NCBI GenBank assembly: GCA_024276995.1
Contig: JAJRWB010000019.1
Coordinates: 1-31,768 of the forward strand
Source: Candidatus Eiseniibacteriota bacterium
GTDB lineage: Bacteria; Orphanbacterota; Orphanbacteria; Orphanbacterales; Orphanbacteraceae
Direction of reading: 5' to 3'
Length of the DNA stretch: 31,768 nucleotides
In this document: one piece after another, positions 4,031-19,015 of the stretch
Numbering within the stretch: position 1 is the stretch's first letter
Layout of the letters: the number at the start of each line of letters is the position of its first letter
Notes under the pieces: generated by a model
Told to the model about the DNA's origin: nothing
Databases searched by the model: none
The model's input: the letters and a program-made list of their open reading frames with translations, nothing else
Program-made: the position numbers and the translations under genes

Positions 4031-5530
4031 ATGAGCGTTGAACCGCGACCCGTCAGAGTGGTGCGCAGACCGTACAAGTTCCTCTCGGACAACACGCGCG
4101 TTATCGCGCAGCCTTTGCAATCTCAGAGGGTCGACGGGGGGCCGACCACCGGCTTGATGAAGAGAGTTCTGGATCTGCCGGAAGACGAGGTCCGCCTTCT
4201 GTTGGCCGAAGTAAGAGAGGAATACTCTCACCGCCATCGCGATTTTGAAGAATTGCTCAGGCGACACTTCACCGAGAGAATCGCGCCGGTTCTTCCCGAC
4301 GCCGATTCGCTCTCTTCGGATCGCAAGCTGCTGCTCGCCGCCTATTTCACCAAGGAATACTCGGTCGAATCGGCGGCATTGTTCAACCCCTCCATTGTTC
4401 CCCATCCAAACCAGAGCGGCGTGCCCGAGGGCGGCCTGCGCTTCATCATGAGTTTCCGCGCCACCGGAGAGGGACACATCTCGTCGATCGTCTTCCGCAG
4501 CGGAATCATCACGTCCGACGGCAAGATCTCGATCGACCCGGCCAACCAGTACAGCGAAACACCCGAGATCCGAAAGGACGCCGTCTACGACAAACACCTT
4601 TTCGAATTGAAGCTCAACGAGATGGGCGCATGCAACGAAGTCACGGCGCTGATCTTCCAGCGCCTGGCCGAGCATTTCACATTCGACGAGCTTCTTGACG
4701 AAATGGCGGAAGTGGAAAAGGAGGAGATTCTCGGAAAGAGAATCCTCTCGCAGACCTTCGAAACGATGACGTGGCTGGCCCGCTCAAACTATGAACTGAA
4801 GTTCCGCGCTGATCGGATGATCTCCGAGCGCGTGATCTTCCCCGTTTCCGCAAATGAACGCAACGGCATCGAGGACGCCCGGTTCGTGCGCTTCGTGGAC
4901 GACGACGGAACGGTCATCTACTATGCGACCTATACCGCCTTCAGCGGTGACCAGATCCTACCGCAATTGATCGAAACGAAGGACTTCATCCGTTTCAAGA
5001 TCATCACGCTCAACGGAAAGGCCGTCCAGAACAAGGGGATGGCGCTGTTTCCGCGCAAGATCAGCGGAAGATACGCCATGATCTCCCGTCAGGATGGCGT
5101 CAACCTACACATCATGTATTCCGACCACCTCCACTTCTGGCAGGAGGCGCGCATCATTCAGCGCCCGCAAAAGCCGTGGGAACTCACACAGATCGGCAAT
5201 TGCGGCTCGCCTGTCGAGACCGAGGCGGGTTGGTTGCTGCTGACCCACGGCGTCGGGCCGATGCGGGAATACTCCATCGGCGTTCTGTTGCTCGACCTGC
5301 ACGACCCGTCGAAAGTCATTGCACGCCTGGACGAACCGCTTATGTCGCCGAATGAACACGAACGGGAAGGATATGTTCCCAATGTCGTTTACACGTGCGG
5401 GTACCTGGTTCACGGGAGTCAGATGATCATTCCATACGCGATGTCGGACACGGCATGTGCCATTGCAAGCCTCTCGGTATCGGACCTGCTCGAGAGCCTG
5501 CTCGCCGGTTCGTCCGATCGCACGAGCTGA
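4031..5530 (+). CDS. GH130-family glycoside hydrolase/phosphorylase (long form)
   Basis: A 499-residue protein with the five-bladed beta-propeller signature of GH130, the family of beta-mannoside phosphorylases and beta-1,2-mannosidases. Residues 1-110 form a helical N-terminal extension. The propeller begins near AALFNPSIVPHPNQ (116-127). The conserved EDxR motif is EDAR at 281-284, with Asp282 the probable catalytic acid. Later blades carry SPVETEAGWLLLTHGVG and a C-terminal YVPNVVYTCG motif. No signal peptide is visible, so it should act in the cytoplasm. The start follows AAGGAG with 9 bases spacing. It leads an operon with two GT4 glycosyltransferases and a second GH130, which suggests turnover or recycling of a mannose-containing glycan. 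Phosphorylase versus hydrolase cannot be settled by eye. Confidence 0.82.
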   Translation: MSVEPRPVRVVRRPYKFLSDNTRVIAQPLQSQRVDGGPTTGLMKRVLDLPEDEVRLLLAEVREEYSHRHRDFEELLRRHFTERIAPVLPDADSLSSDRKLLLAAYFTKEYSVESAALFNPSIVPHPNQSGVPEGGLRFIMSFRATGEGHISSIVFRSGIITSDGKISIDPANQYSETPEIRKDAVYDKHLFELKLNEMGACNEVTALIFQRLAEHFTFDELLDEMAEVEKEEILGKRILSQTFETMTWLARSNYELKFRADRMISERVIFPVSANERNGIEDARFVRFVDDDGTVIYYATYTAFSGDQILPQLIETKDFIRFKIITLNGKAVQNKGMALFPRKISGRYAMISRQDGVNLHIMYSDHLHFWQEARIIQRPQKPWELTQIGNCGSPVETEAGWLLLTHGVGPMREYSIGVLLLDLHDPSKVIARLDEPLMSPNEHEREGYVPNVVYTCGYLVHGSQMIIPYAMSDTACAIASLSVSDLLESLLAGSSDRTS

Positions 5531-5580
5531 ATGAACCCCGCAATTGGGTTTTCCCGCCGAGTTGATTGAGGAGAAGACAT

Positions 5581-7881
5581 GTGGAAACGTCGAAAAAAAG
5601 TGCGCCAAGACCCCGCTCAGTAATCGTTATTGGCAACTATCTGCCCAGAAAATGCGGCATCGCCACGTACACCACCGATATCAGCGAGGCGCTCGCCGGT
5701 GAGATCGGTTCTCGCGGCAGTGTCGTTGCCGTTGCGATGGACGACCTGCCCGAAGGGTATCCGTATCCCGATCGGGTCAGGTTCCAAGTGCGCGCCAATC
5801 GGCAGGCCGACTACCTTCGCGCGACCGATTACATCAACGTCCGCCAGTTTGAGATCGCTCTCCTCCAGCACGAATTCGGAATCTTCGGTGGAAAGAGCGG
5901 GGCTTACGTTCTCTTCCTGATCAAGTCCCTGAGAATGCCCGTGATTACCACCCTCCACACCGTGCTTCAGGAACCTACCGACGAGCAGCGTGGCGTCATC
6001 CACAGCCTGGCCGAATACTCGGATTATCTGATCGTGCTGAGCGGGAAAGCGCGCGAAATCCTTTGCGAAGTCTATGGGATTCCCGGGGAGAAAATCGTCC
6101 ATATCCCGCATGGCATTCCGGATATTCCGTTCCTCCAACCCGATACCGTCAAACATCAATTCGGGATCGAAGGGCGAAAGCTTATCCTGACATTCGGCCT
6201 TCTCGGTCCGGGCAAGGGGATCGAGGTGATGCTCAGGGCCCTGCCCGACATCATCGAAAAGCATCCCGACGTCATCTACCTGATCCTGGGCGCCACGCAC
6301 CCGAATATCAAGAGAACCGACGGCGACAAGTATCGCCACGACCTCCAGATCATGGTCAGCCAGCTTGGTATCGGGGACCATGTTCTGTTTCATGACCAGT
6401 TCGTCTCTCTCGACATGCTGTGCCGCTATCTGAGCGCCGCCGACATCTACTGCTCCCCGTATCCCGGGCGGGATCAGATCATCTCGGGTACACTGGCTTA
6501 CGCGATGGGCGCGGGAACGGCGATCGTCTCCACGCCATATTGGTATGCCGAGGAAATGCTGGCCGATGGACGCGGCCGGCTTGTACCGTTCAATGATTCG
6601 GAGGCGTTCGCACGTGAAATCACGGCTCTTCTGCACGATGATGAGGGACGCGCGGCGTTGCGCTCGCGTGCCTATCAGCATTGCAGGCCCATGGTATGGA
6701 AACAGGTGGCGCGCGCCCATATCGAGCTGATGCAACGCTCCCTCGACAATCGCCTCCAGATGCCCAGACCTCTTCCGGTTGAGGCCACGGTTCCGACCAA
6801 ACCGCGTTTTCCCAGGCTCATCGAGAAGCTTCCCGAGGCGGACCTGCGCCACCTGCGCAGGATGACCGACGATACCGGTCTTCTGCAGCACGCCATTCAT
6901 TCCACGCCTCGTCGTTGTGACGGCTATTGTGTCGACGACAATGCGCGGGCCTTGATCTTTACGAGTATGTATCATGCCGTTTCGAAAGATGAGAGCATTA
7001 TACGGCTGACCCATATTTACCTCGCCTTTCTCTACGACGCATTCAATACCGCCACCGGGCGTTTTCGCAATTTCCTGTCTTTCGATCGCAGATGGATGGA
7101 AGATATTGGGAGCGAAGACTCCCACGGCCGGGCGCTTTGGGGCCTGGGCGAGACCGTAAGGTACGCACCGGAAGATGCGGTGCTCAACGTGGCCACGGAA
7201 CTCTTCATCGCCGGGCTCGACGCCACAAAGGCCTTCACTTCACCGCGGGCCATCGCCTTTACGCTCATCGGCATCCATTCCTACATGACGGTTTACGGAG
7301 GCGACGCCGCGGCTCGACGGCTGCGCGTCACGCTTGCCAACCGGATTCATGACCAGTTCGAGCGCAATGCCGGTGAAGATTGGCCCTGGTGCGAAGAGAC
7401 GCTGACGTACTGCAACGGGAAGCTGCCCCACGCGATGCTGTTGTCCGGACAATGGATCCCCGATCCGAAAATGCGGGAGAACGGGATTCGTTCGCTGCGC
7501 TGGTTGCTCGATCAGCAGACCGCGCCTGAAGGCCATTTTTCGATCCTGGGAAATCAGCAGCCCTTCTCCCGTGACGGCCGGCGTTCTTTCTTCGACCAGC
7601 AACCGGTGGAATTGCTCGGCCTGATCGGCGCCTGTGCCGAAGCGTATCGCTCCACCGGCGAAAGCGAGTGGCTCGATCATTGCGAGCGTTGCATGCGCTG
7701 GTTCCTGGGCGATAACGACATCAACACGCCGATCTATGACCATAAGACCGGTGGCTGCTTCGACGGACTGCAATTCGACGGTCCGAACCTGAACCAGGGC
7801 GCAGAGTCGACCCTTTCCTGGTTGATCTCGTTGATGACAATGTACGATATCCTGTCGGAGGCACTCCTGGATGACGGCTGA
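5581..7881 (+). CDS. GT4 glycosyltransferase fused to an all-helical glycosidase-like domain
   Basis: A 766-residue two-domain enzyme. Residues 10-400 are a GT-B fold GT4 glycosyltransferase (IGNYLPRKCGIATYT at the N-terminus, HIPHGIPD, LTFGLLGPGKGIEVML). The usual EX7E motif is replaced by IISGTLAYAMGAGTAIV, as in a recognised GT4 subset. Residues 415-766 are a separate helical domain with DDNARAL, SEDSHGRALWGLGE, WPWCEETLTYCNGKLPHAM and GPNLNQGAESTLSWL, resembling an (alpha/alpha)-barrel of the glycosidase/epimerase type. I chose GTG at 5581 because GAGGAGA lies 5-6 bases upstream; an in-frame TTG at 5566 would leave no ribosome site. It overlaps the next gene by 11 bases. The link to GH130 suggests mannosyl transfer, but the helical domain's role is unknown. 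Confidence 0.8.
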   Translation: METSKKSAPRPRSVIVIGNYLPRKCGIATYTTDISEALAGEIGSRGSVVAVAMDDLPEGYPYPDRVRFQVRANRQADYLRATDYINVRQFEIALLQHEFGIFGGKSGAYVLFLIKSLRMPVITTLHTVLQEPTDEQRGVIHSLAEYSDYLIVLSGKAREILCEVYGIPGEKIVHIPHGIPDIPFLQPDTVKHQFGIEGRKLILTFGLLGPGKGIEVMLRALPDIIEKHPDVIYLILGATHPNIKRTDGDKYRHDLQIMVSQLGIGDHVLFHDQFVSLDMLCRYLSAADIYCSPYPGRDQIISGTLAYAMGAGTAIVSTPYWYAEEMLADGRGRLVPFNDSEAFAREITALLHDDEGRAALRSRAYQHCRPMVWKQVARAHIELMQRSLDNRLQMPRPLPVEATVPTKPRFPRLIEKLPEADLRHLRRMTDDTGLLQHAIHSTPRRCDGYCVDDNARALIFTSMYHAVSKDESIIRLTHIYLAFLYDAFNTATGRFRNFLSFDRRWMEDIGSEDSHGRALWGLGETVRYAPEDAVLNVATELFIAGLDATKAFTSPRAIAFTLIGIHSYMTVYGGDAAARRLRVTLANRIHDQFERNAGEDWPWCEETLTYCNGKLPHAMLLSGQWIPDPKMRENGIRSLRWLLDQQTAPEGHFSILGNQQPFSRDGRRSFFDQQPVELLGLIGACAEAYRSTGESEWLDHCERCMRWFLGDNDINTPIYDHKTGGCFDGLQFDGPNLNQGAESTLSWLISLMTMYDILSEALLDDG

Positions 7882-9013
7882 TCCGCGACACAGAAGTTCG
7901 GTGAAGGCCGTGAGCGACTCTTCCGAAACATTGAGAATCGCGATGCTGGCACCGGTCAGCTGGCCTGTGCCCCCCAGGAGTTACGGCCCATGGGAACAGG
8001 TTGTCGCGAATCTTACCGAAGGGTTGGTCAAACAAGGCCACGATGTGACGCTCTTTGCCGCACGCGGCTCAAAGACGCGCGCCAGGCTGGTCGAAACCGT
8101 TCCACACCCCTTTTCGCTCTGGCCTGAGGATGAGTTAAGCCGCCCGCAGCAATTCGATTCGAGCAGCGGCCTGCTCGATGGGCCACCGCATTTGCGCGCG
8201 CTCGAACAGCAGCACATCGCCATCTGCATGGAAGCCGCCCGGGAGGGCGATTTCGATATTGTGCATTCCCATCTCCACGTTCATGCCCTGATCTTCAGCC
8301 GCCTCATACCCTGCCCCATGCTTACGACGCTGCACGGCAGCGCCTGGGTGCAGGCGGATCATGCGATTCTGAATCGCTACAAGGACCGGCCGTTCGCTTC
8401 CATCTCCGATTCGGAACGCGCTTTCAAGCCCGATCTGAATTATGTTGCGACCGTGTACAACGGAATCGATACGGAGGCCTACGGGTATTGTGATTCGAAA
8501 GAGGATTACCTGCTGTTCAGTGGCCGCTTCGCACCCGAAAAAGGGGCCGCAGAATCGGTGCAGATTGCTCTTCGTTCCGGCATGCCGCTCAAGATGGCGG
8601 GGATGATCGAAGAGAAATACCAAGACTACTTTGAAACGGCCGTTCAGCCGTACGTCGACAGCAGAAATATAATGTATTTAGGGTTGTTGTCGCAAGAAGA
8701 ACTCGTACCCCTGTATCAGAAAGCAAGAGGCCTGGTATGTCCCATCAAGTGGGCGGAACCGTTCGGGCTGGCCGTGGCGGAGGCTCAGTCCTGTGGTACG
8801 CCGATCCTCGGTGCCCGAAGAGGCGCATTCGTGGAAACGGTGCAGGAAGGAAGAACGGGATTTCTGTTTGATAAGGTTGACGAAGCGGTGGGGCTCGTTC
8901 AACGATTAGGTGGGATTGAGCCGGCCGCCTGCAGGCACAATGCCGAAATGCGATTCTCCTCGAGTGTAATGGCGGGCGCATACGAGAAGGTCTACCATAT
9001 GTTGCTGAGATGA
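7871..9013 (+). CDS. GT4-family glycosyltransferase
   Basis: A 380-residue GT-B retaining glycosyltransferase that would move a sugar from a nucleotide donor to an unknown acceptor. The N-terminal Rossmann domain has LAPVSWPVPPRSYGPWE (the glycine-rich acceptor-side loop) and IVHSHLHVHALIF. The C-terminal donor-binding domain has LLFSGRFAPEKG and a complete EX7E motif, EPFGLAVAE, followed by AQSCGTPILGARRGA. There is no membrane segment or signal peptide, so it is cytoplasmic or peripheral. The ATG at 7871 overlaps the end of the preceding fused enzyme by 11 bases, so the two are translationally coupled and probably work in the same pathway. The acceptor and sugar are not predictable from sequence alone. 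Confidence 0.88.
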   Translation: MTADPRHRSSVKAVSDSSETLRIAMLAPVSWPVPPRSYGPWEQVVANLTEGLVKQGHDVTLFAARGSKTRARLVETVPHPFSLWPEDELSRPQQFDSSSGLLDGPPHLRALEQQHIAICMEAAREGDFDIVHSHLHVHALIFSRLIPCPMLTTLHGSAWVQADHAILNRYKDRPFASISDSERAFKPDLNYVATVYNGIDTEAYGYCDSKEDYLLFSGRFAPEKGAAESVQIALRSGMPLKMAGMIEEKYQDYFETAVQPYVDSRNIMYLGLLSQEELVPLYQKARGLVCPIKWAEPFGLAVAEAQSCGTPILGARRGAFVETVQEGRTGFLFDKVDEAVGLVQRLGGIEPAACRHNAEMRFSSSVMAGAYEKVYHMLLR

Positions 9014-9099
9014 ATCGGTGAGAAAACCTGCCGCGCACATGTCGGCGATGTATTGACGGTGATCGACTGCACAAGCCAATGAGAAATATCGGAGCTGCC

Positions 9100-10035
9100 A
9101 TGAAATCGATCGTTCAAAGGTATAAACACAATCCGATCCTGACGAAACAGGACGTCCCTTACTGCGTGGAAACCGTCCACAATGCGGGGATGGCGAAATG
9201 TCGGGATCGATATATCATGCTGTTTCGTTCGCACCTTCGAAACGGGAGGAGCATCATTGGTCTGGCGGAAAGTGAAGATGGATTCCGCTTCAACGTGCGA
9301 TCGGAGCCTTTCCTGACGCCTGAGAAAAACGGCCTGTTCGGCGAGTACTAAGAGTATGGCGTCGAAGATTGCCGTATCACCGAAATGGACGGCGAGTTCC
9401 TGCTGACGTACAGCGCGTATTCACGAAACGGGGTCAGGATCGCCCTGGCGAAGACGAAGGATTTCAAGTCTGTCGAGCGTGTCGCGCTTATCAGTCAGGC
9501 GGATATGCGCAATGTGGTCATCTTCCCGGAAAAAATCGAGGGGCGGTATGCGCGGCTGGACCGTCCTCATTCGCGGATCTCCCCATGGGCGATCTGGATC
9601 AGCTACTCGCCCGATCTCGTTCATTGGGGTGAATCGCAGCTGGTCATGAGACCGCTGCAGTATCATTGGGATGAAATGAAGATCGGTCCCGGCGCACCGC
9701 CGATCAAGACCGACAAGGGATGGCTGCATATCTATCACGGTGTTTTCCAAACAATGGACGGATCCATCTACCGACTGGGCGCGGCGCTACATGACCTGAA
9801 GAACCCGGCAAGAATCATTGGAGTGGCGGATGATTGGATCCTCCAGCCGGTGGACCCATGGGAAACAACCGGCTACGTTCACAACGTGGTGTTCACCTGT
9901 GGCTGCATTCCGGAAGCTGACGGCACCGTGAGGATCTATTGGGGTGGCGCCGACACGGTGATGTGCACAGGCTCGGCCGGGATCGATGATCTGGTGGATC
10001 TGTGTGTGAATCACTCCCGCCCCGCCAAGGCGTAG
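9100..10035 (+). pseudogene. GH130-family protein interrupted by in-frame TAA
   Basis: Two same-frame pieces together give a normal 311-residue GH130 protein. It has NPILTKQDVPY near residue 11, FGEY[stop]EYGVEDCRIT around residue 84 (EDCR is the conserved EDxR with the probable catalytic Asp), KIGPGAPPIKTDKGWLHIYHGV, and a YVHNVVFTCG tail; it ends at TAG. The TAA at 9349-9351 is the only defect, and both sides align to the family without a gap. A single base change from CAA or GAA would explain it. I prefer ATG at 9100, with GGAG five bases upstream, over the ATG at 9079. If the stop is real, the shorter 3' reading from 9385 lacks the first propeller blade and probably would not fold. It is the last gene of the operon. 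Confidence 0.75.
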
Positions 10036-10059
10036 GCACTGTTTCTGTGGCATCACGAA

Positions 10060-10086
10060 GGACGGCGCGAAACACCCGCGCCGTCC
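10060..10086. terminator. Perfect hairpin between convergent genes
   Basis: GGACGGCGCG (10060-10069) pairs perfectly with CGCGCCGTCC (10077-10086) across a 7-base loop. It lies between the convergent GH130 gene (stop 10035) and LamG gene (stop 10125), so it can serve as a two-way terminator. No long T-run follows on either strand. Confidence 0.6.
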
Positions 10087-10124
10087 CTGGTTCGTGTATG
10101 AATCGATATGAATGGTCCGGAGAC

Positions 10125-10898
10125 TTACCGAAAAAGCGACTTCACGCTTCCCCACGTGACCGCCTCGACGGCGGTGAACGGACCTTCGCACCCGTCGATA
10201 TGCGCAATCTCCGCTTCGCTCAGCGCGTAGTCAAATATGCGAACATCATCTAGTGTACCGTCGAGGAAATTCGTGTTTCCCCACACGTAGGAGACGCCGC
10301 CCAGTTCGAGGCCGTGCTGGTCGTACTGGATCGGCAACTCGTAGGGCATGCTGCTTTCCAGGACACCGTTGATGTAAAGACGCATCTCGGACCCGCCGAA
10401 CGTGCCGGCGACGAAATACCAGACCCCCGTCTGCACGGTGGTGGTCGAGTAGAGGATACCGTCGGCGGAGTTTCCCGACCCCTGATTCAGACTGAAGACG
10501 ATCTTCTGGGAATCGATCATGGCGAACATCGCGTAGCTGTTATCATTCGTCAGATAGCGCTTCCGAATGATCGACTTGGTGTTCGAGGGAAGGTCGAACG
10601 TGTTGAGCCGGAATGTCGCCGCCAGGGTGACCTCGGACGGTTCGAGACTGGGGGCGTAGGCGACGTCGATCCAATCCATGTCGCCGTCGAAGCAGGCGGC
10701 GGAAGTATCCACGCCGGCGCTGTCCGCGCACAGTTGCGTATCTCCCTGGGGCGTTCCATTATTTCCGTTTCCGGATGAATCGGCGAATGAGCCGCTGAAT
10801 GAATAGCAGGCAACCGGCGGCGGAGACTAAGCCACGGCAGAGGCAACGGAAAGAGCAAGAACGCCAGTCAGCAAGAGAATACACATAGTTCTCATCAT
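10125..10898 (-). pseudogene. Secreted LamG-like jelly-roll protein interrupted by in-frame TAG
   Basis: Read from ATG at 10898 (GGAGG upstream) the frame gives a signal peptide (MMRTMCILLLTGVLALSVASAVA), a TAG at 10829-10827 exactly where the mature protein should begin, then SPPPVACYSFSGSFADSSGN and a complete concanavalin/LamG fold. The latter has ATFRLN, SIIRKRY, WYFVAGTFGGSEMRLYINGV, and the closing GTLDDVRIFDYALSEAEIAHI. CAG-to-TAG would explain the stop, since Gln is common after AVA. The ATG at 10712 allows a shorter product without a signal peptide. The protein should bind glycans or another surface ligand after export. It ends in TWGSVKSLFR, which may be a sorting tag. It is the first gene downstream of the sigma-54 promoter at 11058-11073. 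Confidence 0.7.
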
Positions 10899-10996
10899 CT
10901 TCTTTCTACCTCCATTGATCTGTTGGGTGCCGGGGTACAATCCTGTGCGGTGTGCAAGGCATCGAACCGGTTCTCTCCTATCGGGTACGGGGAGAC

Positions 10997-11008
10997 TCAA
11001 TCGGGCAT
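10997..11008 (-). other. Three-codon open frame with a full-length Shine-Dalgarno in the LamG leader
   Basis: AAGGAGGTGA (11020-11011, minus strand) precedes ATG CCC GAT TGA. This ten-base match to the anti-Shine-Dalgarno is the strongest ribosome site noticed in the window, yet only Met-Pro-Asp is encoded. After the TGA the same frame continues for 33 codons and stops in a 4-base overlap with the LamG start (ATGA). It could be a leader peptide or a small gene broken by a TGA. Confidence 0.3.
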
Positions 11009-11057
11009 CTTCACCTCCTTGAAAGATCGATCTGTTTTCGGCCGTTTTTTTCGCTAT

Positions 11058-11073
11058 TGCAGAGATCGTGCCA
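11058..11073 (-). promoter_or_regulatory. Sigma-54 (-24/-12) promoter for the LamG gene
   Basis: TGGCACGATCTCTGCA on the minus strand matches the RpoN consensus TGGCAC-G-N4-TTGCW at all but one fixed position, with the obligatory GG-N10-GC spacing. Transcription would start near 11047 and run about 150 bases to the LamG start codon. An NtrC-type regulator is encoded immediately upstream (11244-12623). The 10899-11243 interval holds no long gene; its content is this promoter, two upstream dyads and a short leader frame. Confidence 0.78.
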
Positions 11074-11155
11074 TCGGCGGGACGACATGGAGGCCGGAGC
11101 AGGGATCGGGTGGGGCCTTACTTGTCAAGGAGTTGGAACGGCGGCTCGTCTCCGG

Positions 11156-11215
11156 GACGATCGGAAATCGTCGGAAAAACCTCCGCCCGGAAACAAGCGT
11201 GTTCTTCCGCGAACA
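11156..11215 (-). promoter_or_regulatory. Two dyads, candidate enhancer sites for the NtrC-type regulator
   Basis: GACGATTTCCGATCGTC (11172-11156) is a 6-5-6 perfect inverted repeat. TGTTCGCGGAAGAACA (11215-11200) is a 5-6-5 perfect inverted repeat. They lie about 85-140 bases upstream of the -24/-12 promoter, the normal distance for sigma-54 activator sites that act by DNA looping. The two sequences differ from each other, so at most one may be the true site. Confidence 0.45.
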
Positions 11216-11243
11216 TTCCTGATCGCCGGAAGGAAGCCGGGCG

Positions 11244-12623
11244 CTATTCTCCTCCCGGCCCGTGCTTTCGCAGAAACCGGCGGACCGTCTCCGGGACGAC
11301 ACCGGTCAGGTCGGCGACACGCTTGATGTCGACGGGCCTCGCCCGGCGAAGATCGCCGCCGACACGTGCAAAAGCCCTCTCGTAGAAGGATCGCTCGAAG
11401 GCCTGCAGGACACGGGTCTTTTCGGTTTCGTAGTGGAAGCCCGCGGGGGGATCGTCTGTGGGAAGATCGAACGCCTCCGGTCCGAGAACCAGCGAATCTC
11501 CCCGGTAGACCAGTGCGCGCATGATCGTGTTCCGGAGTTCCCGGGCATTGCCCCTCGCCCACGAGTATCCTTGAAGGTGCGCCATCCCCTCCCGGGAGAT
11601 GACGACATTCTCGATTCTCATATCCTCCGCGATCTGTGAAAGGAAATGCCCCGCGAGATCGGGAATGCAGTCCGGATGCCTTCTCAAGGGGGGAAGATGG
11701 AGTGAGATCACCAGCAGACGCTGGTAGAGGTCGTTTCGAAACATTCCGCGCCCCACCATTTCTCCCAGATCCCGATTCGTGGCCGCGACGATTCGAAGAT
11801 CGACCGGGATTTGCTCGTACGAGCCGACGGGACGGATCTTCTTCTCATCGATCGCCTTCAGGAGAAGCGCCTGACTGTCGGTATGCAGATCTCCGATTTC
11901 GTCGATGAAGAGCGTACCTCCGCAGGCCGATTCGAACAGCCCCTTGCGGTCCCGGTCCGCACCCGTGAAGATCCCCTTTTGGTAGCCGAAAAGCTCGGCC
12001 TTCGCCGTATCACCGGTGATGGTGGCGGAGTTGACATCGACGAAAGGGCCGGACGTACCGCTGCTGAGATGATGGATTTCCTTCGCAAGAAGACTTTTTC
12101 CCGTCCCGCTCTCGCCGGTGATCAGGACGGTCATGTTCGGAACGCTCGCGACCTTTCGCACCTTTCGCTCGATCTCCCGCATGGCGGGTGACAGGAAGAG
12201 GAAGGCACCCCGTTCGCTGCGCAGCTCCTTCCGGAGACTCCGCGTTCTTCCCACGATCTTGAAGCAGCTCTTCAGCTTGGCGACGATCTCGTTTCGTCCC
12301 GCCGACTTGCGAATGTAGTAGAGTGCGCCCCGATCCACGGCTTTCGCCTCCGTTTCCGCGGAATGATGCTGTGTCACCATGATGACGGGAAGGTCGGGAT
12401 CGGTCTGCTTGATCGAAGTGAGAATCGAGATACCGTCCTCTTTCCCTTCGAATATCAGATCGAGAATGACCGCATGCGGCGGGTTGACCGCGATCTCCCG
12501 GATCCCTTCCTCGCCGTAACGGACATGACGCACCTCGAAGTCGGGTGTGAGAATCGCGGCGAGATCCTCGGCGAAATCCGGTTCATCGTCGATAATGAGA
12601 ACGGCGGGGTTCGTCGCGTTCAT
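11244..12623 (-). CDS. NtrC-family sigma-54-dependent response regulator
   Basis: A 459-residue three-domain regulator. The receiver (1-125) has the acidic pair D12/D13, phospho-acceptor D55 (VILDL), T84 and K106. The AAA+ domain (about 142-370) has Walker A GESGTGKS (170-177), Walker B GTLFIDE (236-242), arginine-finger region FRNDLYQRL (295-303) and WARGNARELRN. The C-terminus carries an HTH (DIKRVADLTGVVPETVRRFL, 432-451). The sigma-54 contact loop reads GIFTGA (217-222) instead of GAFTGA. Its ATG overlaps the sensor-kinase stop by 4 bases, so the pair is translationally coupled. The likely target is the sigma-54 promoter directly downstream. Family and partner are clear; the regulon is inferred. 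Confidence 0.93.
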   Translation of the reverse strand: MNATNPAVLIIDDEPDFAEDLAAILTPDFEVRHVRYGEEGIREIAVNPPHAVILDLIFEGKEDGISILTSIKQTDPDLPVIMVTQHHSAETEAKAVDRGALYYIRKSAGRNEIVAKLKSCFKIVGRTRSLRKELRSERGAFLFLSPAMREIERKVRKVASVPNMTVLITGESGTGKSLLAKEIHHLSSGTSGPFVDVNSATITGDTAKAELFGYQKGIFTGADRDRKGLFESACGGTLFIDEIGDLHTDSQALLLKAIDEKKIRPVGSYEQIPVDLRIVAATNRDLGEMVGRGMFRNDLYQRLLVISLHLPPLRRHPDCIPDLAGHFLSQIAEDMRIENVVISREGMAHLQGYSWARGNARELRNTIMRALVYRGDSLVLGPEAFDLPTDDPPAGFHYETEKTRVLQAFERSFYERAFARVGGDLRRARPVDIKRVADLTGVVPETVRRFLRKHGPGGE

Positions 12624-15600
12624 CGATGTTTCTCCTTTTTCGACGCGGATCCGATCGCGTTTCCGCGGCGTGAAGAATCGGGAACGATACCTGATTCGAG
12701 TGTACGCAAAGTCACGGAGATTACGGTCCCCTTTTCCCGGGATGACGATACGATCGCGATCGTTCCGTCATAGAGTTCGAGACGGCGTCGTGCATAGGGA
12801 AGCCCCCGGCCATGTGTCCGGGGATCGGTCGATCGGAACCGGAAGAGCTGATCCGGGTCGCTGCTTTGGAATCCTGTGCCCGAGTCCCTGATCTGAAGAA
12901 CGAGAAGACCTCCGAGCGGTTCCGCGGCGATGGAGACGAATGGGGGCCGGGATGAGGCATTCGCCATGGCCGCCCGCGCCCCGTTGGTGATGAGATTTTC
13001 CAGGATATTCGACAGTTCGCCCGGCACGACGAAGACGGGGGGGAGATCGCCGGGAATGGAGCAAGCGATGCGAACGGCTCCGTGCTTCTCCACTACGCGA
13101 TCCACGGCGGCGGCGATTTCCGCGGCCGCCTCCGTCCGGAATCTTTCGCCGAGAACCGCGAAGAGACGATCGACAACCCCGGTAATCTCCTCGATCCGAT
13201 CGGACAGGTCGACAAGTCTGCGCTCCGCCCCGGCGAGCGATTCGCCGAGCGCGGCGAGATCGAATTCGATCGGTGTCTCGCCGAACAGTTCCCGCATCGC
13301 CGACTCGATCCCGTTCATACCGTCGTCGAACTCTTCGGCAAGCTTGTTTCCGAGGTCGGCCCGGGGAAGAAGCCGGGAAATCCTGTGCATCTGGGGTTGG
13401 ATGACGTCGCCGTAGGAGTCGAGGCGTTTCTTCAGCCGCGGCCCGACAAAGCGGATATCCGAGCCTTCGCATACGCTCCGGCAAAGGGACGCGACCCCCG
13501 CCAGGTACTTCAGCCAGCTCGCATGCGAGAAACCATCGATCGCCTCCAGAAGCTGGAGACGCGCCTCGTCGATGTCCCTACCCGACCGGGCGAATTCCCC
13601 TTTGCGAGAGGAGACGAGATACGCGGCGGCCGCACCGAACCCTATTCCGCCCAACATGCCCGCGAGTCCGATCCACCCCCTCCGAACCGCCGAAGGATCG
13701 CGCGGCCAGAAGAAAGCGGATGAAGCCACGGCCAGGATTGAAGGAACGACGATCAGAAGGGCGGCTTTTCGTGCCGCACCGTCAAGGCGGCTCCCGGGCT
13801 CAACAGGGAATCCGGGTGATACGGAGCGATTGGCGAAAAGGACGGCTCCGAAGAGAAGGCCCACCACGATCGCCCCGGGCAGCAGTGTCGGCCAGCCGGC
13901 CGAGGAGAGCGCCATCGACAATGCGCGTTCCCGGACCTCGATGAGACTCGCCAGGCGCCCCCACAGACCGGGAAAAGCGGGCTCGATGACGTCGATGTGA
14001 TCTCCGGGACGCAGGTTCTTTCGTACGACAGGCGATTCCGGGCGACTCGGGAACGTGACGATCAGATCGAATGGACCCTGCGAAGGGCATCCGAAGATCG
14101 CTTCGCTCCAGCTCGAACGGGCCGATCCCGCACCGATCTGCCGATAGCCGATCCGTTCGCCGTCACCGAAGAGTTCGACATGCGTGCCGTCCGCGCGAGC
14201 GACCCCGTGCCGATCGAGAACAAGCACCTTGATCGAAGAGCGATCCGCCCCCGGATTCTCGAAGATCGCCACGCGGTTTTCGCCTTGAACGATGGCGATA
14301 AGATCCGGGTCGCCGTCGTTTTCGACGTCGAAACTGGCCACCCGACTCGCCGGCGGCATTCGCTGCAACCAGTATTCGGGGTCGGATACTTGAAAGCGGC
14401 CGGTACCGTCATTCTCCAGATAGACGTTCTTCGGTGGAGGGCGCGCGTACCAGTTGTTGCAGGTGAAGAAAAGATCCAGATCGCCGTCGAGATCGAAGTC
14501 CTGGAATACCGGCTGCTGCGCATGGGCGCTTGGAACCGATCGAATCCGATTGCTCACATCGGCGAACCTTCCGCCGTCGTTCCGATAAAGGAGACTGTGA
14601 TCGTGTGTCACATCCGGTTCATTCTCGTGATTGCGTATGTCGACGGAGATGAACAGATCCAGGTCGCCGTCGTTGTCGATATCTCCGAATGCTGCGCCGG
14701 TCTGGTGGGTTCCGATCTCGGGAAACCAGTCCGACGTCGCGCAGATCAGGCTGTCACCGTCTCTGAGAAACAAGTCCGTATTCGTGCAGAACAGGTCGAT
14801 GTCGTTGTCACGATCGATGTCGATCGGGATCGATCGGGTTCGGTATCCTCTCCGTCGTTCGGGCTCCGGATAAGGGGGGAGGGGAATCGACCGAAAAACT
14901 CCCGGCCGGTCGTGGACATAGATCGAATCGTAGACCAAGCCGTTGTACCGGATGAGCAGGAGTTCCGGTGAGGGGGTGCCGCACAGGTCGGCCGCCACCA
15001 GCCTTGCCGGTCGATTCCGTTCCACATTCGGCGGAGCGGGACACGCGATTCGCCGAAACCGACCCGCCCCCATGCCCCTGTAGATTCTCAACGAATCGCC
15101 GCTGAACCCCAGCAGATCCGGAAACCCGTCCCGGTCAAGATCGGCGACCGCCGGTTGGCGGAGTGATGTCGCTCCCTCCAGATCGAGTTTCACGCGTTCT
15201 CCCGGAACGTCCTTTCCCTCCCAAAGCCCGGTCCATAGTACCGGCATCGTGTTTCGGTAAAGGAGCAGAACATCCGGCTTCCGATCGCCCGTGAGATCGG
15301 CGACCAGGAAGTCGTCTTCCGGCGGGGTGACCAGGTGAGAGGACTCCGCACGGCTCATATCGTCGACGAATCCCGGAGGACCGATCCGAATCTCATCGAC
15401 ATACGCGATCTGATTCTTCGGAAACCAGAAGAATATCTCGAGAGAATCCAGCATTAGGCTGTCTGGAAACCCATCCTGGAAAATCGGCGCCCCGTATGGT
15501 TTCGACAGGCTCTCCACGTGACGGCAGAATTGTTGAGAGGGGTCGTCATAGGGCCACGCCCCTCGCTCATAGAGGGAATGACTCGCCCAGGAAAGGCACA

Positions 15601-16027
15601 ACGGTTTGGAACTCGATCCGACATGGAGCCAAAGAGCCAACCCGACACCATCGCTTTCTCTCTTATCCCCGATCCACCACGACCAGGAGACCCTCGTCGA
15701 GTCATTAACGAAAAGAGGAGGATCGAGCGCGTAGCGAAGCGATACTTGTTCATTGTTAACGTATAGATCCTCATCCCAGGTTCGAACGTTGCAGAACAGA
15801 GATCTTTCGCCGACAAGGCGACTCCCCTCATCGATGGAATACTCGATCAGGCCCTCGTCTCCCGCTCTCGGATGCCACCCGGCGAGTGAACCGTTCTCGA
15901 AACCAAGATGTAGAACGTGATCCTCCGCATAAGCATGGGACGCCAAGCTGATTACGACCACCGCCGGCGCCAGAAGGGGAATCGCGCCTCCCCACCGGAA
16001 TGACTTCACGATATCGGTACAGGTCAA
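12620..16027 (-). CDS. Giant sensor histidine kinase with jelly-roll, FG-GAP and UnbV sensor domains
   Basis: About 1135 residues. A signal sequence (ending near AYA, 34) leads to a jelly-roll-like domain (37-215). An FG-GAP/VCBS propeller follows (240-593) with Ca-binding loops DIDNDGDLDLF and DFDLDGDLDLFF, then an UnbV/ASPIC domain (about 598-682). Three membrane helices (713-732, 754-774, 785-805) precede a long helical region with FSHAS, whose His (835) is the best phospho-acceptor candidate. The HATPase domain has N-box NILENLITNGARAA (1007-1020), DSGTGF (1048-1053) and GRGLPYARRRLELYDG (1073-1088). I chose TTG at 16027, behind GAGGATAAGG; GTG at 16009 gives a neater signal peptide but has no ribosome site. 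The output is the overlapping NtrC-type regulator. The ligand is unknown; a glycan or surface protein is plausible. Confidence 0.85.
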   Translation of the reverse strand: MTCTDIVKSFRWGGAIPLLAPAVVVISLASHAYAEDHVLHLGFENGSLAGWHPRAGDEGLIEYSIDEGSRLVGERSLFCNVRTWDEDLYVNNEQVSLRYALDPPLFVNDSTRVSWSWWIGDKRESDGVGLALWLHVGSSSKPLCLSWASHSLYERGAWPYDDPSQQFCRHVESLSKPYGAPIFQDGFPDSLMLDSLEIFFWFPKNQIAYVDEIRIGPPGFVDDMSRAESSHLVTPPEDDFLVADLTGDRKPDVLLLYRNTMPVLWTGLWEGKDVPGERVKLDLEGATSLRQPAVADLDRDGFPDLLGFSGDSLRIYRGMGAGRFRRIACPAPPNVERNRPARLVAADLCGTPSPELLLIRYNGLVYDSIYVHDRPGVFRSIPLPPYPEPERRRGYRTRSIPIDIDRDNDIDLFCTNTDLFLRDGDSLICATSDWFPEIGTHQTGAAFGDIDNDGDLDLFISVDIRNHENEPDVTHDHSLLYRNDGGRFADVSNRIRSVPSAHAQQPVFQDFDLDGDLDLFFTCNNWYARPPPKNVYLENDGTGRFQVSDPEYWLQRMPPASRVASFDVENDGDPDLIAIVQGENRVAIFENPGADRSSIKVLVLDRHGVARADGTHVELFGDGERIGYRQIGAGSARSSWSEAIFGCPSQGPFDLIVTFPSRPESPVVRKNLRPGDHIDVIEPAFPGLWGRLASLIEVRERALSMALSSAGWPTLLPGAIVVGLLFGAVLFANRSVSPGFPVEPGSRLDGAARKAALLIVVPSILAVASSAFFWPRDPSAVRRGWIGLAGMLGGIGFGAAAAYLVSSRKGEFARSGRDIDEARLQLLEAIDGFSHASWLKYLAGVASLCRSVCEGSDIRFVGPRLKKRLDSYGDVIQPQMHRISRLLPRADLGNKLAEEFDDGMNGIESAMRELFGETPIEFDLAALGESLAGAERRLVDLSDRIEEITGVVDRLFAVLGERFRTEAAAEIAAAVDRVVEKHGAVRIACSIPGDLPPVFVVPGELSNILENLITNGARAAMANASSRPPFVSIAAEPLGGLLVLQIRDSGTGFQSSDPDQLFRFRSTDPRTHGRGLPYARRRLELYDGTIAIVSSSREKGTVISVTLRTLESGIVPDSSRRGNAIGSASKKEKHR

Positions 16028-16087
16028 GGAAACCTTATCCTCGCTCCGGTGGATGGGTGAATGCAGGTTGATTGCAAGAAGAAGAAT

Positions 16088-16093
16088 ATCATA
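16088..16093 (-). promoter_or_regulatory. Candidate -10 box upstream of the sensor kinase
   Basis: TATGAT on the minus strand lies about 60 bases upstream of the chosen TTG start, in a locally A/T-rich stretch. No clear -35 box was found. The gene is divergent from the zinc operon, whose promoter begins at 16200. Confidence 0.25.
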
Positions 16094-16199
16094 AACATCC
16101 ACCCTTCGCGGAGAGCCGAGAACCATGGCGAAACTCGGGCGGGCCGTACGAGGCGATCTCCAGGCCACGGACTCCCGCCGGGCGCGTCACAGTTTTTCC

Positions 16200-16252
16200 T
16201 TGACGGCACACCGATTATGAATACAATATATGAGCAGATGAGCAGATGTTCA
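16200..16252 (+). promoter_or_regulatory. Sigma-70-type promoter with SmtB/ArsR-type operator
   Basis: TTGACG (16200-16205) and TACAAT (16222-16227) are 16 bases apart. The inverted repeat TGAGCA-GA-TGTTCA (16239-16252) has the 6-2-6 layout of SmtB/ZiaR/CzrA operators (compare TGAACA-N2-TATTCA). A direct copy of TGAGCAGA sits just before it (16231-16238). The operator covers the expected start site, so bound apo-regulator would block transcription and zinc would relieve it. Confidence 0.72.
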
Positions 16253-16271
16253 TCCATCGAGAGGAGTCGTG

Positions 16272-16565
16272 ATGACACCGATCCAGGAAGAACAGGCCCT
16301 CCGGCTCGCGGAGCTGTTCGGCGTGTTGAGCGATCCGAGCCGCGTGCGCATCATCGCCGCCCTGCTCGAGGGGGAGACGAACGTCGGTACGCTGGCGCGG
16401 ATCGTGGGGATCAGCGAATCCGCCGTGTCGCACCAGCTGCGAACACTGCGACAGATGCGCCTGGTGAAGGCCCACCGGCAGGGACGGTGGATCTCCTACA
16501 CCCTCGACGACACCCATGTCGCCGACCTCTTTCAACGCAGCCTCGATCATATTTCTCACGGGTAG
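16272..16565 (+). CDS. ArsR/SmtB-family zinc-type metal sensor repressor
   Basis: A 97-residue winged-helix repressor. Residues 10-75 carry the fold (FGVLSDPSRVRIIAALLEGE, then recognition helix SESAVSHQLRTLR and wing VKAHRQGRWISYTL). The C-terminal helix has D80, H82, H93 and H96 in the pattern DxH-X10-HxxH, exactly the alpha-5 zinc site of SmtB and CzrA. There is no CxC of the ArsR/CadC alpha-3 site. So it should sense Zn(II) (or Co(II)) and lose DNA affinity on binding. I chose ATG at 16272, with GAGGAG five bases upstream. It is followed after 38 bases by the P1B ATPase it presumably controls and preceded by a matching operator. Confidence 0.9.
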   Translation: MTPIQEEQALRLAELFGVLSDPSRVRIIAALLEGETNVGTLARIVGISESAVSHQLRTLRQMRLVKAHRQGRWISYTLDDTHVADLFQRSLDHISHG

Positions 16566-16603
16566 GGCGGCGTTCGCCCGCCGCCACGGGACGGGATCGC
16601 GCG

Positions 16604-19015
16604 ATGGCAGACAAAACCGTAGAGATCGACATTCCCCTGCTCATGCCGGAAATCGAAGATGGGAATGACGACTGCCTGATCCGGCTGCAGGACGGTCTGC
16701 GCGGTTGCCACGGAGTTTCGCATGTTCACCTGAACCGCGAAACCGCACCTCCTTCCCTCTGTGTCCATTTCGATCCGAACTTGGTTTCCCTCGGAACGGT
16801 GCGCCGCCTGGCGCAGGAAACCGGATCGGGTCTCGCCAACCGATATCGCCATGAGCGCATTCCCTTCGAGGGGATGGACCACGCCGATGAAGCACCTTTC
16901 GTGCGCCGAAAACTGGAGAGTCTTCCGGGGATGCTCCATGCCGATGTGAGCTATGCCGCGGGACTGATCTTTCTCGCCTATGACACCGAGGTCCTGCGGC
17001 CGGAAACGATCGCCGGACGGATGCACGATTCCGGCGTCCGACCGATCGGATGGGGCGATGCCGATCGCGCCTCCGACGATGCCGCCGCTCACGAAGGCCA
17101 CGATCACGGAAGCGCGCCGGCTTTTCTGCCCCACTGGGTCCGGGAACGCTGGACACTGCTCCTGGTCGGAATCGCGGGAGTTCTGCTGCTCACCGGCTGG
17201 CTCGGTGCGGCCCTATTCGACTTCCCGCCGCAGGTGGCACTGGTATTCTTCCTCCTTTCCTACCTGAGCGGCGGCTATGACATCGCCACCCACGCGATCC
17301 CCGGCCTCTTCCGGGGGAAGTTCGACACCGACGTGCTCATGCTCGCCGCCGCCGTGGGCGCCGCGATTCTCGGTGAGTGGCGTGAGGGTGCCTTCCTCCT
17401 CTTCCTCTTCAGCCTCGGTCACGCCGGCGAACACCATGCCCTCGACCGCGCCCGCAACGCGGTCAACGCTCTCGGCGAAATGATGCCCCGGACCGCGCGT
17501 CTGAAAATCGACGGGAAACTCGTCGAGCGTCCCGTGGAAAGCGTGCGGATCGACGATGTGGTCCTCGTCCGCCCGGGCGATCGGATACCGGTGGACGGAC
17601 GGATCGTGGCCGGCGAAAGCGGCGTCGATCAAAGCCCGGTTACAGGCGAGAGCGTGCCGGTGGCCAAGTCGGCGGGCGACGAGGTGTTCGCCGGCACGAT
17701 CAACCAGGATGCCGCCCTGGAGATCGCGGTCACCCGCCTGGCGCGGGACAATACGCTCAGCCGTGTCATGCAGATGGTCGCCGAAGCCCAGAGCCGGCAA
17801 AGCCCGACGCAGCAGTTCACCGAGAGGTTCACGCGCAGGTTCGTGCCCGCCGTGCTGATCTTCGTGCTGGCGGCCGTCGTCATCCCCCCTCTGACCGGAT
17901 GGATGCCTCTGCGCGAAAGCTTCTATCGCGGAATGCTGCTGCTGGTGGCCGCTTCCCCCTGCGCGCTGGCGCTGGGAACGCCCGCCTCGGTGTTGGCGGG
18001 GATCGCCCGGGCCGCGCGTATGGGCGTGCTGATCAAAGGGGGTGTCCATCTCGAGAACCTGGGTGCCCTGAAGGCGATCGCTTTCGATAAGACCGGTACG
18101 CTGACTTCCGGGGATTTCACTCTCAGCGACATTCTGCCTCGCGGCGATGCGACCGAGGAAGAGTTGCTACGCGTTGCCGGCGCCTTGGAACAAAGTTCCG
18201 GTCATCCCCTCGCCCTGGCGGTGGTCGACGCGGCACGTGACAGGGATTTGTCTTTGCCGATGGCGGAGGGACTGGAAAACGTCTCCGGTCGCGGCGTGCA
18301 CGGTCTCGTTGCCGGAGGCCGGGCACAGGTCGGTTCGCTCCGTCTGTTCGGTGAAATGCCGGGAATCGACGTTCCCGAAGAGATCGTGTCGGCCGTGACT
18401 GCGCTCGAAGGGGAGGGAAAGACGACGATGATCGTCCGCCACGGCGAAGCCTTTCTCGGCATCCTGGCGCTGGCCGATGCGCCCCGCCCGCGCGCGAAGG
18501 AGATTCTGCGATCCCTGCGGGAACTGGGGGTGCGCAAGCTGGTGATGCTCACCGGAGACAATCCGGAGGTGGCGCGTCGTATCGGCGTTAGCGTCGAAAT
18601 CACCGACGTGCGGGCCGGGCTTCTCCCGGAAGATAAACTGAACGCCATCCGCACGATGAAGGAAGAGTACGGTGCCATCGCGATGGTCGGCGACGGTGTG
18701 AACGACGCCCCGGCTCTGGCCACCGCCACCGTCGGCATCGCCATGGGCGGGGCGGGGACGGCCGTCGCGCTCGAGACCGCCGACGTCGCGCTGATGGCGG
18801 ACAGCTTAGACAAGCTCCCCTTCGCGGTCGGACTCAGCCGCGCCAGCCGCATCGTCATTCGACAGAATCTGGGCGTCTCCCTCGGTGTGATCGCCCTGCT
18901 GATCGTCAGTTCGGTCTTAGGCTGGCTCGAGTTGAGCTGGGCGGTCGTCCTGCACGAGGGGAGCAGCCTGGTCGTGGTGATGAATGCCCTGCGATTGCTG
19001 CGATACGGTGAGTAG
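16604..19015 (+). CDS. zntA: P1B-type heavy-metal (zinc-type) efflux ATPase
   Basis: An 803-residue inner-membrane pump that exports Zn(II)/Cd(II)/Pb(II) using ATP. All core motifs are present: TGES (347-350), SPC in helix 6 (451-453), DKTGT with the phosphorylated Asp (495-499), SGHPLA, and MVGDGVNDAP. The last helix has HEGSSLVVVMNALRLL, typical of ZntA/CadA. The N-terminus holds two diverged HMA-like folds (about 20-75 and 95-150) that lack the metal-binding CxxC. A His-rich linker (HEGHDHG, 163-169) follows instead. The SPC and HEG signatures favour zinc-group specificity over copper (CPC). It follows its SmtB-type regulator and probably shares its promoter. A methyltransferase remnant begins 11 bases after its stop. 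Confidence 0.92.
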   Translation: MADKTVEIDIPLLMPEIEDGNDDCLIRLQDGLRGCHGVSHVHLNRETAPPSLCVHFDPNLVSLGTVRRLAQETGSGLANRYRHERIPFEGMDHADEAPFVRRKLESLPGMLHADVSYAAGLIFLAYDTEVLRPETIAGRMHDSGVRPIGWGDADRASDDAAAHEGHDHGSAPAFLPHWVRERWTLLLVGIAGVLLLTGWLGAALFDFPPQVALVFFLLSYLSGGYDIATHAIPGLFRGKFDTDVLMLAAAVGAAILGEWREGAFLLFLFSLGHAGEHHALDRARNAVNALGEMMPRTARLKIDGKLVERPVESVRIDDVVLVRPGDRIPVDGRIVAGESGVDQSPVTGESVPVAKSAGDEVFAGTINQDAALEIAVTRLARDNTLSRVMQMVAEAQSRQSPTQQFTERFTRRFVPAVLIFVLAAVVIPPLTGWMPLRESFYRGMLLLVAASPCALALGTPASVLAGIARAARMGVLIKGGVHLENLGALKAIAFDKTGTLTSGDFTLSDILPRGDATEEELLRVAGALEQSSGHPLALAVVDAARDRDLSLPMAEGLENVSGRGVHGLVAGGRAQVGSLRLFGEMPGIDVPEEIVSAVTALEGEGKTTMIVRHGEAFLGILALADAPRPRAKEILRSLRELGVRKLVMLTGDNPEVARRIGVSVEITDVRAGLLPEDKLNAIRTMKEEYGAIAMVGDGVNDAPALATATVGIAMGGAGTAVALETADVALMADSLDKLPFAVGLSRASRIVIRQNLGVSLGVIALLIVSSVLGWLELSWAVVLHEGSSLVVVMNALRLLRYGE

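Follow-up and report, generated by a model that had tools for sequence, protein, structure and literature searches.

What does a large sensor kinase control when it is encoded, together with its regulator, upstream of a gene for a single exported protein? The question is raised by a stretch of 31,768 nt from Candidatus Eiseniibacteriota bacterium (JAJRWB010000019.1; hereafter the window), in which genes for a sensor histidine kinase and an NtrC-type response regulator, a sigma-54 (RpoN) promoter and a gene for a LamG-type protein follow one another on the minus strand. The answer that we favour, with somewhat better than even confidence, is that a switch resembling PilS-PilR drives a single-gene unit for a secreted LamG-type protein with a C-terminal tag. 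For comparison within the phylum, this genome was analysed together with six relatives at the family level, none of which belongs to the same genus.

Much of the evidence can be read directly from the DNA, starting with gene order and domain content. The kinase frame (12620-16027) is open throughout and encodes 1135 residues from a TTG start at 16027 (alternative GTG at 16009), with FG-GAP repeats (FG-GAP_3, E 4e-26) and the HATPase_c domain expected of sensor histidine kinases (E 3e-11). It overlaps by four bases (ATGA at 12620-12623) the gene of a 459-residue regulator (11244-12623), in which Pfam identifies a receiver (Response_reg, E 1e-19) and an AAA+ sigma-54 interaction domain (Sigma54_activat, E 9e-57), as is characteristic of NtrC-family sigma-54 activators. 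The best matches of this regulator in the six relatives, and its best paralogue in this genome, are PilR proteins (about 35-41% identity, nearly end to end), and when genome contigs were scanned with the regulator, distant receivers and NtrC proteins were all that came up. The LamG gene (10125-10898) encodes a signal peptide (10830-10898), a Laminin_G_3 domain (10203-10685) and a C-terminal tag, TAVEAVTWGSVKSLFR (10128-10175), that follows the consensus of a tag family; its frame is broken by one TAG codon. A strong hairpin (10051-10100, main stem 10059-10087; -30.3 kcal/mol, z -4.5) ends the LamG transcription unit, and one rpoN gene is present in the genome (E 2e-62). In these respects the preliminary description of the kinase, the regulator and their overlap was accurate.

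The site TGGCACGATCTCTGCA (11058-11073), previously described as matching the RpoN consensus, has the GG-N10-GC spacing, near-consensus flanks and the right orientation upstream of the gene, in a genome that carries rpoN. The letters alone prove little, as the strict 16-base pattern has four matches genome-wide against three in a reversed control. In a weighted scan of 410 kb of the genome the site ranks sixth of all sites, a ranking that is approximate because the matrix was modelled on the commonly accepted consensus and gene calls were crude, the 410 kb being partly chosen around NtrC-type regulators. All 11 sites scoring at least 14 are intergenic, where intergenic DNA amounts to roughly one quarter of the 410 kb (rough gene calls), and several of them lie ahead of flagellar genes (flgF, fliA and fliW, named from sequence) or of a pilin region. 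Weighted score and gene context thus stand above chance, and we regard the LamG site as convincing.

The geometry of the locus has a counterpart in the same genome, where pilB, pilT, pilC, pilS, pilR, a sigma-54 site and pilA (names from sequence) follow one another at a separate locus (C25). From the stop codon of the PilR-type regulator to the sigma-54 site ahead of pilA there are 136-194 bases in the seven phylum genomes, and the corresponding distance in the window is 170 bases. The layout is equal to that of the window, and the earlier statement that no system of such composition had been described could not be upheld. The proposed chain from kinase through NtrC-type regulator and sigma-54 promoter to an exported jelly-roll protein, on the other hand, is supported, because promoter position, score and geometry match pilSR-pilA, rpoN is present and a strong hairpin closes the LamG unit. 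We propose that the kinase, a membrane protein whose large periplasmic sensor region combines a jelly-roll with an FG-GAP/ASPIC-like part, would phosphorylate the adjacent regulator, which may bind DNA ahead of the -24/-12 promoter (11058-11073); the single-gene LamG unit would be transcribed from this promoter, and the SWGxVKxLFR tag would probably direct the LamG protein to the cell surface or matrix.

For the specialist the most surprising part is the tag, above the module itself. The LamG protein of a relative terminates in the same WGSVKSLFR, and the strict DNA pattern W-G-x-[IVM]-K-x-[LMIVF]-[FY]-R-stop occurs at 169 sites in the seven genomes (20 in this one), compared with none in their reversed control. 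Wherever the strict motif was met in the loci that were read (beyond the window these include L160-L191), a stop followed directly, in 50 cases against 0, most of these loci having been chosen for carrying the motif. The consensus of 77 distinct tails is T-A-T-E-E-[ST]-S-W-G-x-[VI]-K-x-L-F-R, ending on the stop codon, and positions before the tryptophan are conserved even though they lie outside the search pattern (Glu in 62/77, Ser in 63/77). A simple hydropathy rule predicts a signal peptide in 73 of the 77 tagged open reading frames. The tagged proteins belong to unrelated families (beta-helix, CHRD, 3-keto-disaccharide hydrolase, pullulanase X25), and some contain choice-of-anchor W, X or J domains, which by their names are associated with varying anchors. 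Sorting tags are recognised as conserved motifs that end many unrelated proteins with signal peptides, and this pattern suggests that the tag serves as a C-terminal signal for sorting or anchoring. Up to E 10 the tails matched no model of Pfam or NCBIfam, a test limited by the very short queries; no tails were found in 423 kb from other lineages, a small sample, and a literature search with the tag strings found nothing.

At two loci, L181 (G004:C21:220000-230000) and L185 (G001:C2:1219000-1233000), four to five short tagged genes stand in tandem and look like an expanded surface-protein family. In three genomes, tagged proteins with similar ends (L168, L151 and L156) are preceded at a distance of 62-187 bases by strong sigma-54 sites, and the stretches read contain no adjacent NtrC-type regulator. 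Among the LamG_3 matches, the window copy is the only one with a sigma-54 promoter.

It is possible, at somewhat less than even odds in our judgement, that the tag acts as the signal in a protein-sorting system of this phylum that has not been described before, and that the module is a dedicated envelope sensor placing one cargo of that system under sigma-54 control, in the manner of PrsK-PrsR and PEP-CTERM proteins and independently of them. The tag, which more than 100 exported proteins bear in this little-known phylum and which neither Pfam nor NCBIfam covers, offers a concrete way into the question of how the surface of these bacteria is built, and allows the sorting machinery to be searched for directly.

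Several observations weigh against the view that the adjacent PilSR-like pair drives LamG expression. The regulator loop reads GIFTGA and not GAFTGA, and the C-terminal helix-turn-helix is atypical, being weak and not of the Fis type in Pfam. The dimerisation region of the sensor contains no recognisable HisKA/H-box (no Pfam HisKA match), and H835 (13523-13525) is the sole residue that can be named as a candidate phospho-acceptor. Conservation of the neighbourhood was not borne out, as none of the six family-level relatives has an orthologue of kinase, regulator or LamG; since none of them shares the genus, the module may be specific to the genus or species. Sigma-54 sites are not significantly enriched at tagged genes (4/72 versus 9/259, P 0.31), and sigma-54 control as a general property of tagged genes was rejected on these numbers. 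To these come the weakness of the dyads and the stop codon in LamG, both treated below, and the fact that the genome encodes 27 or more NtrC-type proteins, any of which could serve the LamG promoter.

This last point speaks for an explanation in which the LamG promoter is genuine and served by another NtrC-type activator, the adjacent pair mainly controlling distant genes. The three related tagged genes that have sigma-54 promoters and no such regulator nearby in the stretches read favour it as well. Adjacency and the pilR-pilA geometry argue in the opposite direction, the adjacent regulator being the known activator in that arrangement in other bacteria (PMC6058289), and we consider the explanation unlikely.

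The preliminary description had pointed to two perfect dyads, which are indeed exact: GACGAT-N5-ATCGTC at 11156-11172 (-99 to -83 from the sigma-54 site) and, more distally, TGTTC-N6-GAACA at 11200-11215. They are unrelated to each other, the first having 6-bp and the second 5-bp arms. The 170-base region holds 4 inverted repeats with arms of at least 5 and a spacer of at most 8, compared with a mean of 2.3 after shuffling (P 0.22), and for arms of six the figures are 1 and 0.66 (P 0.41). The dyads are therefore at chance level and by themselves no evidence, and the claim that they are clear operators found no support. Nor did a genome scan link them to other sigma-54 promoters, since the few exact copies elsewhere fall within long open frames, and the 3 kb examined around them hold no such site. 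In the pilR-pilA region of the phylum (read at L075 and L095-L100), a dyad TCGCA-N3-TGCGA is perfect in six of seven genomes, 107-109 bases before the sigma-54 site, and imperfect in the seventh; this conserved dyad is likely to be the PilR operator of the phylum. It is not present in the window module. The 11156-11172 dyad lies close to the same position, though its letters differ, and thereby gains modest support as a possible operator.

The LamG gene had been described as encoding a secreted LamG-like protein at 10125-10898; domain and signal peptide are real, and the frame is not open, as codon 24 is TAG (10827-10829), immediately past the signal peptide. The 233 codons that follow contain no other stop and retain coding bias, the Laminin_G_3 domain and the tag. 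When 410 kb of this genome were scanned for stops with coding sequence of the same frame on both sides, single stops of all three kinds were found to interrupt genes for GH130, YceI, FlgK, phosphomannomutase and D-2-hydroxyacid dehydrogenase (Pfam matches on either side), and, judged by sequence, a sigma-54 activator gene. The stops lie at window positions 9349 (GH130) and 31628 (YceI) and at L073:6331, L075:10583, L081:1482 and L071:14448. No in-frame stop of this kind was found in 240 kb from relatives. As similar stops affect other genes here and none in the relatives, we consider a sequence error more probable than decay: the LamG TAG is probably a consensus base error (or a strain mixture) of the draft assembly, with LamG intact in the organism. 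That TAG is recoded to an amino acid was rejected as the leading idea, since core-type genes are broken by TAA and TGA as well, the relatives show no such stops and the window regulator itself ends in TAG. That LamG is decaying, the TAG being real and the module having lost its output or making only a 23-residue peptide, would fit the stop itself and the lack of a LamG orthologue to show selection; we find this improbable in view of the preserved remainder of the gene and of the comparable stops in other core genes. Least credible of all is a chance match, with LamG read from another promoter: the strict-pattern counts and the 160 bases from site to ATG, a longer distance than the 33-90 bases seen at most of the other strong sites, would agree with it, and the high weighted score, the location between genes in the correct orientation and a spacing like that at pilR oppose it, no sigma-70-like site having been reported upstream of LamG.

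The sensor begins with a predicted signal peptide, followed by a putative jelly-roll region (residues 36-225; 15353-15922) that matches nothing in Pfam up to E 10. An FG-GAP propeller (about residues 230-600) and an ASPIC/UnbV-like stretch (601-690) come next (together 13958-15340, from Pfam and alignment). An FG-GAP protein from a different lineage aligns as far as residue 688, with 31% identity over 308 aligned positions, and residues 601-690 resemble what we take to be the ASPIC/UnbV end of CRTAC-type proteins, a name that Pfam did not report. Hydropathy predicts three transmembrane helices (residues 710-738, 750-776 and 786-806; 13610-13900), which precede the cytoplasmic kinase core (12704-13525). 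There, HATPase_c covers residues 1004-1108 by Pfam, with N, G1 and G2 boxes assigned by position at residues 1007, 1048 and 1073. Full-length relatives of the sensor could not be found across 386 genomes, and FG-GAP-kinase fusions elsewhere were found neither in 60 nor subsequently in 386 genomes; one candidate fusion of 1076 residues turned out to be a PAS-type kinase. The window kinase was also considered as a PilS paralogue, which was rejected, the similarity being weak and no better than to other kinases. AlphaFold models were unusable (pLDDT 36 for LamG and, from a single sequence, 33 for the sensor).

Some further features of the locus may be mentioned. The LamG leader contains a perfect ribosome-binding sequence, AAGGAGGTGA, with a three-codon frame, ATGCCCGATTGA (10997-11020), about 40 bases past the expected transcript start; a structured leader RNA was ruled out for want of a notable fold. 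An ArsR-type regulator (16272-16565) and a P-type metal ATPase adjoin the kinase divergently (16061-19015, plus strand), and a glycan gene cluster with two GH130 phosphorylase-type genes and two glycosyltransferases (4031-10035, plus strand) is convergent with LamG.

Compared with known systems, the module shares with PilS-PilR-pilA a kinase, an NtrC-type regulator, a sigma-54 promoter and a gene for an exported surface protein, all on one strand and with like spacing. It differs in its sensor, with a large periplasmic jelly-roll and propeller where PilS has a multi-transmembrane/PAS architecture, and in its output, a tagged LamG-type protein in place of a pilin. C25 holds the genuine pilBTC-S-R-A locus, and the window pair is a separate paralogue. 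In Pseudomonas, PilR and sigma-54 activate pilA, and an interaction of PilS with PilA results in pilin autoregulation (PMC6058289); by analogy, a similar feedback loop is conceivable for the window module, although it is as speculative as the extracellular polymer or surface state that the preliminary description suggested as the signal sensed by the kinase.

PrsK-PrsR is likewise an NtrC-type pair, with sigma-54 promoters for single-gene units that encode PEP-CTERM proteins (PMC1569441), and RpoN-dependence has been demonstrated for pepA (PMC9850573). The window has in common with it the NtrC-type pair and the sigma-54 promoter of a single-gene unit for an exported protein with a C-terminal tag. 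The analogy, already drawn in the preliminary description, is better than could be known at that point, because LamG carries a tag that is found throughout the lineage. The regulator scores 270 bits against a cut-off of 503 bits for TIGR02915 and the kinase has no PrsK match; the tag of this lineage has no PEP and no transmembrane helix, and most tagged genes here lack a sigma-54 site. Like the signals of PEP-CTERM, GlyGly-CTERM and MYXO-CTERM proteins and the Por secretion tail, the tag is a short conserved sequence at the extreme C-terminus of otherwise unrelated exported proteins; it differs from these in having no transmembrane helix or terminal basic run. With a regulator far below the PrsR cut-off and a pilSR locus elsewhere in the genome, the module is a member of neither system, and resembles both PilSR-pilA and PrsKR-PEP-CTERM in its working. 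The pilSR-pilA layout would have been reused with another sensor and another surface protein, which makes the output of this sensor nameable and testable.

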